Below the pieces are notes generated by a model. It saw nothing but the letters and a program-made list of their open reading frames with translations. It was not told where the DNA came from and ran no database searches. Positions 37,064 through 40,890 of a stretch of 40,890 bases of DNA are shown here, piece by piece. A program made the position numbers and the translations under genes. The DNA comes from Alphaproteobacteria bacterium (GTDB lineage Bacteria; Pseudomonadota; Alphaproteobacteria; Rhizobiales; JAJRRF01), in contig JAJRRF010000181.1 in assembly GCA_024279735.1 (NCBI GenBank), positions 1 through 40,890 on the forward strand, in the 5' to 3' direction. How positions within the stretch are numbered: position 1 is the first letter of the stretch; every line of letters begins with the position of its first letter.

Positions 37064-38821
37064 CTACATCTCATCGACAGGCTCAACGCCCAATATTTGT
37101 AACCCTGAAGATATGACTGCTGCCGTAGCAGCAACCATGGCAAGGCGTGCTGCTGTCAACTGTTTATTGTCTCCAGAGATAAACCGTAAATGTGGTATAT
37201 CTGTGCCTTTATTATACAGTGAATTGAAATTGCTTGCCAAATCATTAAGATAGAACGCAATCCTGTGCGGTTCATGCATTAATGCCGCACTTTCCACAGT
37301 TTTTGGGTATTGGGCGAGACATTTTATCACAGCAATCTCGGCTTCGTCCGTCAACAGACCCAAATCTACACTGTCCAGGTTCTGCGGATCAAAGGTCATA
37401 TCTGGCATCATTTCAGGCAATTTACGGTGCAGCACAGACTGGGTGCGGGCATGGGTGTATTGCACATAATAGACCGGATTCTCCCTTTTGTTCTCCACAA
37501 CTTTGGCAAAATCAAAGTCCAACGCAGCGTCATTCTTGCGGTACAGCATCATAAAGCGCACCACATCCTTGCCTACCTCATCGACAACTTCCCGCAGGGT
37601 GACAAATGTCCCTGCCCGTTTTGACATTTTCAAAGGTTGCCCGTCCCGAAACAGGTTGACCAACTGGACAATCTTGACATCCAGCGTCCCTTTGTCATCA
37701 CTCAGGGCTTTCACGGCTGCCTTCATCCGCTTGATATAGCCGCTATGGTCTGCGCCCCAGACATCAATCATCTGGCCAAAACCCCTGTCGAACTTGTCCC
37801 TGTGATAGGCCATGTCGGACGCAAAATAGGTATAGCTGCCATCTGACTTGACCAGGGCACGGTCGACATCATCACCGTAATCTGTTGAACGGAACAGGGT
37901 CTGCTCACGTTCGTCCCAGTCCTCCAGCAACTTGCCCTTGGGCGGCGGCAGAGTGCCTTCATAGACAATGCCGCGTTCCTGCAACTCGGTAATGGTTGCC
38001 CTAACCACATCCTTTTCCCCCTGGATCAGGGAACGTTCGGAGAAATAGACATCAAACGATATATCCAGGGCTTTCAGGTCATCGCGGATCATGTCCATCA
38101 TCGCATCAATGGAAAAGTCCTTGAACAGGGCCAGCCATTCAGCCTCATCCTTGCCCAGATAGTTATCCCCATATTTTTCAAACAGGGCCTGTCCGACAGG
38201 TTTCAGATAATCCCCGGGATAAAGCCCTTCCGGGATTTCAATGGACTGCCCCGCAGCCTCGCAATAGCGTAGATAGGCAGACCGTGCCAGCACATTGACC
38301 TGGTTTCCAGCATCATTAATATAATATTCGCGGGTGACATCATAGCCGGCAAACTCCAGCAGCCGCGCCAAAGCATCGCCAAAGATCGCGCCGCGACAAT
38401 GGCCAACATGCATCGGGCCCGTCGGGTTGGCCGAGACAAATTCCAGATTGACCTTTTGGCCTCTGCCCGCTTCAGAGCGGCCATATTTTGTGGGCGCATC
38501 CAGAATCAGCGGAATAATCTGAAGCCAAAACGCTTTACCAATGGTCAGGTTGATAAACCCAGGCCCGGCAATATCCACTTTGTCAATATCGCTATGGCTT
38601 TCCAGCTTTTCCGCAACCTTCTGCGCCAGGTCGCGCGGTTTCATCTTGGCAAACCGCGCCAGCACCATCGCCACATTGGTTGATATGTCGCCATGGCTCT
38701 CATCACGCGGGGTCTCTACACTCACGCCCTTCCAGACCATGTCAGGGGACATCACCCCCTCAGACTGGAGCTGCGTCACGGCATCAAGGATAATGCCCTC
38801 AAAATGGGAAAATACGTTCAT
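37064..38821 (-). CDS. argS: Arginyl-tRNA synthetase
   Basis: [29 protein letters not shown] (HIGH), [20 protein letters not shown] (KMSK). Confidence 0.98.
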
Positions 38822-38894
38822 AATTTTTTGGTTTCTCTTGTTGTTTTTGGGCTTGCACTAACAGGTATTTGTTTTTACAGGAAATTGCGAATTG

Positions 38895-39359
38895 TTATAC
38901 TTTAGCCTTTTGGTGATAGCTGGTAAGGTGATTGTCAAGAGACCAGATAAAAATCTCTTTGGCTGGAGAGATGGCACAAAACCTTTCAAACTCCTTGATA
39001 ATGGTCAAATCGCCAAAGCCTATCTCTCTCATAGCCAACTCTGGAAACTCAGACAACCAACGGGCAAAATCATTGGTCAGAGGACATTCACTTATTGTAT
39101 AAGGAGCTTTCCCATCAAAGGTATCACGAACTTCTTGGATAAAAAGATTGGCAACATCTCGTCTTTGTCTTCCATCGCCATTTTGGGCAATATGATTTCC
39201 TGTTTCTAAAATGGTCGCAATAGGCAGCATAAACTTGCATTTGCGATTCTTATGTTTTTCAAAAGTGTTAAGGATTTCGTCTCTATCCCTATTCAGCTTT
39301 GGTACATTGAGAATAGTGACAAAAACACTGGTATCAATGAGACAGATAATACGGCTCAT
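38895..39359 (-). CDS. PIN-domain protein (putative RNase effector)
   Basis: LIDTSVF (D9), ATILETGNHI (E52), GFGDLTIIKEFE (D117), IWSLDNHL (D142): acidic PIN layout; start overlaps the upstream ATPase stop (ATGA). Confidence 0.8.
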   Translation of the reverse strand: MSRIICLIDTSVFVTILNVPKLNRDRDEILNTFEKHKNRKCKFMLPIATILETGNHIAQNGDGRQRRDVANLFIQEVRDTFDGKAPYTISECPLTNDFARWLSEFPELAMREIGFGDLTIIKEFERFCAISPAKEIFIWSLDNHLTSYHQKAKV

Positions 39360-40645
39360 TCACCAATACCCCGCATCCGTTCAAGCCACTCCTCGTCTTT
39401 CTCCTTCTGTTCTTCAGCTGAAACAGGGTTTTTAACAAAACGGTCAACAATACCATTTGTGACTAATGTGCCAAGAGGTCCCTGAAACACCAACCCCTCA
39501 TAATCATCAAGATCACTCAAACGTACAAGGCGGCTATCGCCGTCTTTGGGATCGCGGTATGAAAACACCACATCGCCCAAGGCCTCATCTGGCAGTGCAT
39601 CCATCAGGGCGGGGTTATGGGTGGTGAGCAACAGGCGTATTTTGCGCTCCTTAGCTTTTTCCAGCATCATCGCCAGCAGTTCATGCGCCCTTGACGGGTG
39701 AATGCCGTTATCCACTTCCTCAATCACCACTGTTGAATTTTCGGGCGCGGAAAGAAGGGCGGCAGCAATTGCCAGCACCCGCAATGTGCCGTCTGAGAGA
39801 AGCTCCCCCAACACAGGACGTTCCTCGCCGCCAAAAGTTTCAACCAGCTCAAAAAAGTAGCGGCCACGGCGGTCATCCTGAAGCCTTATATCTGTAAAAT
39901 TTTGCTCTGGCAGGCTTTTAATAAAGTTAAGCAGCGGCTCTCTATTCTCTTCCTTTGCCCAAAGGGTTTGCAAAACGCCCGCAAGGTTTGAGCAATCATT
40001 GCGCAGTGTTTTTTCAGGAACACTATCACCGCGCATTTTCGAGGGGATTGGGTCGATGAATAGATTTACCTTAAGAAATATTTGATAGAGTTCTACTGAT
40101 TGTAATGCCTCAAACTGAAGCGGGTTATTTGTATCAAACAAAGCAGCTAAATTTTCAATATGTCCCATTACAGATGTTATATTCGGAATATCAAGTATCA
40201 GACCATCTTTAAAGGTAACAACATTCCTATTTTCTTGGAAAGGAAATACTTTCCCAGTATCATTTTTTTCCACACTATATAAAGAGCGTTCATCTTCAAA
40301 TATTTCTTCCTCCAAAACTTTTAAACCATTGTTTTGTCGTCCCAATGTTATCAAAAATTTATTCCATGTTGGCCACTCAATCTCACACCCCAGCGTAAAT
40401 TCCTTAGCCCCGTGATGCCCCAGGTCACGGCTACTGCCGCGAAATATCTTGTTGCTGTCATCAATATTATGCTGAATGGTGGACAGCTTTTGCCCTTCGG
40501 CCAAAAAGCTTAGGAAGCGGAAAGCCTCAATGGCGTTGCTTTTCCCAGAGGCATTTGCCCCAATCATCAGGGTCAGCGGCGCAAGCGGCAAGGACTGCTT
40601 TTTGCCAAAACTCTTGAAATTCTCGATAGTGATAGATTTTAGCAT
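39356..40645 (-). CDS. ABC/AAA_21-type ATPase (OLD/SMC-like)
   Basis: SITIENFKSFGKKQSLPLAPLTLMIGANASGKSNAIEAFRFLS (Walker A), LLSDGTLRVLAIAAALLS (signature-like), STVVIEEVDNGIHPSRAHELL (Walker B), LLLTTHNPALMDALP (H-loop). Confidence 0.9.
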   Translation of the reverse strand: MLKSITIENFKSFGKKQSLPLAPLTLMIGANASGKSNAIEAFRFLSFLAEGQKLSTIQHNIDDSNKIFRGSSRDLGHHGAKEFTLGCEIEWPTWNKFLITLGRQNNGLKVLEEEIFEDERSLYSVEKNDTGKVFPFQENRNVVTFKDGLILDIPNITSVMGHIENLAALFDTNNPLQFEALQSVELYQIFLKVNLFIDPIPSKMRGDSVPEKTLRNDCSNLAGVLQTLWAKEENREPLLNFIKSLPEQNFTDIRLQDDRRGRYFFELVETFGGEERPVLGELLSDGTLRVLAIAAALLSAPENSTVVIEEVDNGIHPSRAHELLAMMLEKAKERKIRLLLTTHNPALMDALPDEALGDVVFSYRDPKDGDSRLVRLSDLDDYEGLVFQGPLGTLVTNGIVDRFVKNPVSAEEQKEKDEEWLERMRGIGE

Positions 40646-40667: not shown

Positions 40668-40755
40668 AACGCAAATAATGAAGCGTCTTTGTAAGATACT
40701 GATTCAGTTACTATTCTTTGTCATCCTGAATTTATTTCAGGATTCATACACCAAT
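40668..40755. repeat. Palindromic repeat family B, copy 2 (TAACGCAAATA...GTCATCCTGAATTTATTTCAGGATTCATA)
   Basis: Same start and core as the 15082 copy; the right half seems to be missing or too diverged to see. Confidence 0.65.
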
Positions 40756-40854
40756 AGTTCGGACAGTTTTCACCCAACAAAAAAATAAGTGAGCCCTCAA
40801 TTTGTGGGAAGATGGTGTTGTAAACGACATCAATCCTTCAAAACGGAGGAACTC

Positions 40855-40890
40855 ATGGACATTGTAACAACTGTTCTGGATCAAATGCCA
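40855..40890 (+). CDS. Start of an ORF truncated by the window edge (MDIVTTVLDQMP...), possibly a transposase
   Basis: ATG preceded by a strong GGAGG ribosome-binding site; continues off the end. Confidence 0.35.
   Translation, partial: MDIVTTVLDQMP

Follow-up and report, generated by a model that had tools for sequence, protein, structure and literature searches.

A PDC-M07-type ABC ATPase–PIN gene pair, a candidate phage-defense module that recurs beside type I restriction genes

Introduction

Ocr is an inhibitor of restriction, and in the prrA-D locus the gene prrC sits between hsdS and hsdR. In PARIS, AriB tRNases are retained, three to an AriA hexamer, until their release by a phage protein, of which Ocr is an example (PMC12409363). 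The prrC gene is associated with a type I restriction locus, and the Hsd complex keeps its product inactive (PMC3506569). For retron-Eco7, neither PtuA nor PtuB is toxic by itself, whereas PtuAB is toxic and tRNA-Tyr is depleted (PMC11555353). According to its citation in PMC12988326, the PDC series of candidate systems was put forward on the basis of "guilt by embedding" within known defense loci (Payne et al. 2024, bioRxiv 10.1101/2024.01.29.577857); PMC12988326 describes validation as still pending for most of the PDCs discussed there. Here, we analyzed a gene pair encoding an ABC-type ATPase and a predicted PIN protein in a 40,890-nucleotide stretch of an alphaproteobacterial genome (contig JAJRRF010000181.1; hereafter, the window). 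The pair is already listed as a candidate, PDC-M07, and what we add concerns what it may be.

Results

Family membership and protein features

The ATPase matched the PADLOC model PDC-M07A over residues 1–426 (E = 6.6e-166), the PIN protein matched PDC-M07B over residues 4–152 (E = 1.7e-60), and the two genes have the PDC-M07 layout, being adjacent on the same strand with a 4-nt overlap (Table 1). The preliminary description had held that an ATPase with a stand-alone PIN partner was no named system, but PADLOC carries just this pairing, and by these sequence matches the pair belongs to PDC-M07, a two-gene phage-defense candidate. A literature search found no paper naming PDC-M07 and no published test of the pair.

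Table 1. Positions of the gene pair, its motifs and its upstream border in the window.
Feature	Positions	Strand	Remarks
AAA_21 ABC-type ATPase gene, 429 aa	39356-40645	-	ORF translation, Pfam, PADLOC; predicted sensor/gate
Walker A, GANASGKS	40538-40561	-	ATPase residues 29-36
Signature-like LSDGT (ABC)	39785-39799	-	ATPase residues 283-287
Walker B and D-loop-like VVIEEVDNG	39704-39730	-	VVIEE, ATPase residues 306-310
H-loop TTHNP	39611-39625	-	ATPase residues 341-345
ATGA stop/start overlap, predicted translational coupling	39356-39359	-	ATPase stop over PIN start
PIN-fold protein gene, 154 aa	38895-39359	-	AlphaFold and PADLOC; predicted RNase effector
PIN acidic residue D9	39333-39335	-	kept in 77/77 aligned relatives
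PIN acidic residue E52	39204-39206	-	kept in 76/77 aligned relatives
PIN acidic residue D117	39009-39011	-	kept in 76/77 aligned relatives
PIN acidic residue D142	38934-38936	-	kept in 77/77 aligned relatives
End of multi-copy insertion sequence	40752-40890		borders pair upstream; context, not part of the system

The ATPase matched Pfam AAA_21 (E = 1.2e-31) and, distantly, the PADLOC models of AriA (4e-31). The nearest PDB folds of its AlphaFold model (pLDDT 90.8) were SMC/Rad50 heads and PtuA of retron/Septu. Residues G29, G34, K35, S284, D285, G286, E309 and E310 were invariant in an alignment of 66 ATPase sequences, and the H-loop residue H343 was conserved in at least 90% of them. The smaller protein had no significant match in Pfam or NCBIfam, and a profile search detected no solved-structure relative by sequence; because Pfam gave no match, the PIN assignment is that of the AlphaFold model. 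This model, built on 77 sequences, had a pLDDT of 95.1 and a pTM of 0.88, and its best PDB matches were almost all VapC/FitB toxins (probability 1.00, target TM-score up to 0.72), consistent with a confidently predicted VapC-like PIN fold. The Foldseek E-values to VapC were modest (best 9.7e-4), so we infer RNA as the substrate from the fold only. All four acidic residues of the predicted active site occurred together in 76 of the 77 aligned relatives. The Walker A, LSDGT, Walker B EE and TTHNP motifs, as well as the four acidic positions, had been pointed out in the preliminary description; each is present, and the motifs are conserved across the 66 ATPase relatives.

Some family members encode natural dead effectors, in which an intact PIN frame beside the ATPase has lost catalytic residues. 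These comprise L089/L015 from Magnetococcales, with loss of E52 and D117, and L025 from an Anabaena cylindrica plasmid, in which D9 is replaced by Y.

Surroundings of the pair in the window

Downstream of the pair is argS, on the same strand. Upstream, at a distance of 107 bases from the ATPase gene, the window enters the end of an insertion sequence, which is present in about 40 near-identical copies genome-wide, many of them at contig ends. The G+C content is 39 to 45% across most of the pair, compared to about 51% around it. The gene upstream of argS in nine or more relatives from the same order (loci L134-L151; compare window positions 38821-38895) is one that we take, from its C-terminal sequence, to be dGTPase-like. 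In the genome studied here the ATPase–PIN pair occupies this place, and a search of the genome with one such dGTPase-like protein found none; the gene may have been lost or may be too divergent. The ATPase was absent from all 60 order-level relatives searched. On account of the low G+C content, the insertion sequence border, the position in place of the dGTPase-like gene and the absence of the ATPase from those 60 relatives, the pair looks like a recent horizontal arrival. A phage origin was set aside, as phage records contained no close PIN relative and a scan of viral contigs yielded only three ATPase loci.

The reading frame of the insertion sequence begins MDIVTTVLDQMP in the window. A 34-base stretch at positions 40714-40747, gtcatcctgaatttatttcaggat, recurs beside other copies of the insertion sequence and looks like a small dispersed palindromic repeat. 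On a different contig of the same genome (L154 188-861, contig C109), a VapC-like PIN gene that follows a small antitoxin-like gene adjoins a further copy of the insertion sequence; this looks like a separate, ordinary toxin-antitoxin pair.

No restriction operon adjoins the pair in the window, where argS lies on one side and the insertion sequence on the other. We also rejected a defense island around this copy, because the neighbors scanned (argS, a SPOR-domain protein, RecQ, LptD and an aminopeptidase) resemble housekeeping genes; the names argS and SPOR are assigned from sequence.

Genomic context in relatives

A genome collection was scanned with the ATPase clade as the seed, since the PIN relatives together form too diverse an alignment for this purpose, and the scan gave 80 loci. 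Type I restriction genes were found within 8 kb in 25 of these loci and in none of 40 control regions, each 17 kb long, taken from genomes carrying the pair, mostly from the same contigs (Fisher p = 2e-5, an approximate value given the relatedness of the loci and the building of the type I restriction profiles from annotated plasmid copies). In 13 genome loci, hsdR came immediately after the PIN gene, usually in the order hsdM-hsdS-ATPase-PIN-hsdR, and the same order with PIN before hsdR was found on two annotated plasmids, from Vibrio and Photobacterium. This position between hsdS and hsdR is the slot where prrC is found. Restriction-linked copies span Gammaproteobacteria, Betaproteobacteria, Cyanobacteria and others, and on the ATPase tree they need ten changes, at least six of which are forced by well-supported branches; the restriction association has therefore been gained or lost repeatedly. 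Other direct neighbors in relatives matched BREX, Wadjet, Zorya, Dpd and methylase models. The relatives of the window copy thus occur in defense contexts (type I restriction, BREX, Wadjet, Zorya and Dpd), in agreement with the defense-like reading of the preliminary description. That the family has entered type I restriction operons again and again goes beyond this earlier reading from sequence only and is the most useful lead of the analysis.

The distribution is sporadic (1 of 61 order-level relatives and 13 of 399 genomes of the phylum). An ATPase with an SMC/Rad50-type head domain might instead have a housekeeping or repair role, such as RNA processing coupled to DNA damage, that merely resembles defense; the patchy occurrence in the order, the carriage on plasmids and the defense neighbors all speak against such a role, and we consider it very improbable.

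Pairing of the two genes

One of the 80 loci lay at a contig edge, leaving 79 that could be assessed. The PIN gene directly follows the ATPase gene in 73 of these, being intact in 69 and broken in four (L033, L047, L056 and L071), and it is absent from six (L028, L054, L079, L086, L103 and L105), the ATPases of which all retain their motifs. The intergenic gap was −4 nt in 36 of 71 relatives and −8 nt in 25. Protein distances of the two partners correlated with a Mantel r of 0.77, compared to a shuffled maximum of 0.34. An ATPase-seeded collection cannot reveal orphan PIN genes, and for these we relied on separate PIN-seeded searches. In 399 genomes of the phylum, 14 of 15 PIN matches had an adjacent ATPase gene, the lone exception (L012) being a truncated PIN remnant; three further PIN copies all adjoined an ATPase gene, as did the PIN genes of the six plasmid copies inspected. 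Among these roughly 23 PIN-seeded cases, a small number, no intact PIN gene without an ATPase was found.

These data agree with the preliminary description of a genuinely coupled pair. Of the observations that it named as counting against it, two were looked for and not made: homologs of the ATPase nearly always adjoin a PIN gene (73/79), and the acidic PIN residues are kept (76/77). The ATGA overlap that it reported is present, and 61 of 71 relatives have a gap of either −4 or −8 nt. The two-ORF ATPase–PIN unit is real, far beyond what chance would give, and it is conserved and mobile. Pairing is asymmetric, in that an ATPase gene may stand without an intact PIN partner, whereas for an intact PIN gene the pairing was obligate in the cases seen. 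The ten loci without an intact PIN gene (six absent, four broken) indicate that the ATPase may act alone.

In two of the PIN-less loci (L028, from Halomonas sp. Y3, and L105), the ATPase gene lies between hsdS and hsdR; one small ORF separates it from hsdS in L105, and a search of the Halomonas sp. Y3 genome found no PIN related to the PDC-M07B type. Sister ATPases that match PDC-M07A less well overlap another kind of partner, about 190 to 200 aa long (L132:2772-3380 and the ORF downstream of the L123 ATPase). This partner had no Pfam or PADLOC match and carries a DLFLLC(L/I)DRD motif, perhaps Toprim-like, so that an effector swap is possible.

The asymmetry fits a PIN protein that is harmful alone and one that is useless alone equally well. 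In the latter case, the ATPase would be an activator, forming with the PIN protein a single nuclease machine, as in PtuA-PtuB, whose cleavage of nucleic acid would be set off by binding of the ATPase to invading DNA or to DNA ends, the PIN protein being harmless by itself. The proximity of the ATPase fold to PtuA and Rad50, the toxicity of PtuAB but not of either protein alone (PMC11555353) and the lack of orphan PIN genes would all suit this arrangement. However, VapC-like PIN folds are usually active without a motor, and the hsdS-hsdR slot is that of the restrained PrrC; we regard activation as fairly unlikely, and restraint of the PIN protein by the ATPase as the more probable direction of control, an assessment made by analogy.

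Under another reading, the pair is simply a toxin-antitoxin addiction module whose ATPase serves as an unusual antitoxin, and it is maintained on mobile DNA without a role in defense. This reading would account for the VapC-like fold, the plasmid copies, the overlap and gene order, and the finding of the ATPase without PIN but never of an intact PIN without the ATPase. It accounts poorly for repeated insertion within operons of type I restriction and next to genes of BREX, Wadjet and Zorya, and an ATP-hydrolyzing antitoxin of 429 aa would be costly; moreover, a DNA-binding part for autoregulation was not seen. We judge this explanation improbable.

Discussion

The analogies to PARIS and retron-Eco7, together with the VapC-like PIN effector, lead us to regard an ATPase-gated RNase that stops translation as the most likely function of the pair. 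With moderate confidence, we propose a PARIS- or PrrC-like arrangement with a PIN effector, in which translation is halted once interference by a phage is sensed. The SMC/Rad50-like ABC ATPase would be the sensor and gate, and the VapC-like PIN ribonuclease the effector; the two proteins, translated together, would presumably form a complex in which the ATPase holds the PIN protein inactive. Such restraint until infection, which the preliminary description had already suggested, is plausible by analogy with AriAB of PARIS (PMC12409363). The trigger would be a change caused by the phage, the likeliest candidates being a phage protein and interference with the restriction machinery of the cell, as for PARIS and PrrC. 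On sensing it, the ATPase would release or activate the PIN protein, which would cut an RNA of translation, most likely tRNA, and thereby stop both cell and phage; protection would follow from this arrest.

A more specific version, which we put forward only tentatively and think doubtful as it stands, casts PDC-M07 as a PIN-based equivalent of PrrC in split form. Its ATPase would monitor type I restriction enzymes or phage-made inhibitors of them and free a VapC-like tRNase when restriction is disabled. If so, the guarding of restriction would have been reached again with a different nuclease fold, and the gap between hsdS and hsdR would be a recurrent slot for restriction guards.

A conserved ATPase–PIN unit that has repeatedly entered type I restriction operons at the prrC position raises the question of whether a phage anti-restriction protein switches on the PIN RNase. 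If one does, restriction would be backed by unrelated nucleases, namely HEPN in PrrC, Toprim in PARIS and PIN here, all under the control of an ABC ATPase, and one general rule would emerge from several separate defense systems.

Compared to the described systems, the pair shares with PARIS an ABC ATPase and a separate nuclease encoded by two adjacent genes, and its ATPase is distantly related to AriA; AriB, however, is a Toprim tRNase, whereas the effector here is a PIN protein. Membership in PARIS was rejected because there was no AriB match and PDC-M07A fits the ATPase far better than AriA does (7e-166 versus 4e-31). Septu and retron I-A PtuA-PtuB likewise combine an ABC ATPase, with a fold matched by ours, and a small nuclease, but PtuB is an HNH nuclease; neither a reverse transcriptase nor a non-coding RNA was seen here, and with a PIN-fold partner in place of an HNH PtuB we rejected Septu as well. 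The separation from PARIS and Septu drawn in the preliminary description holds on these grounds, the effector being neither a Toprim AriB nor an HNH PtuB. Its statement that the pair is not a standard VapBC also stands. The nuclease has the predicted VapC PIN fold and the four acidic residues, but it lacks a Pfam PIN-family match and its partner is an ATPase of 429 aa; with this gene upstream, argS downstream and no small DNA-binding VapB-like antitoxin next to the PIN gene, VapBC was rejected. PrrC and RloC resemble the pair in coupling an ABC-type NTPase to an RNase, and the type I restriction linkage of prrC is shared by many relatives of the pair. PrrC and RloC differ in being single fused proteins with a HEPN-type nuclease, whereas here the ATPase and the PIN nuclease are separate proteins, and no hsd genes adjoin the pair in the window; membership was rejected on these three points. 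PDC-M07 itself is matched by both proteins over their full length, with top scores and in the same adjacent order, and we found no difference from it. The novelty of the locus is accordingly modest, and the pair is a further member of a catalogued but uncharacterized candidate defense system.
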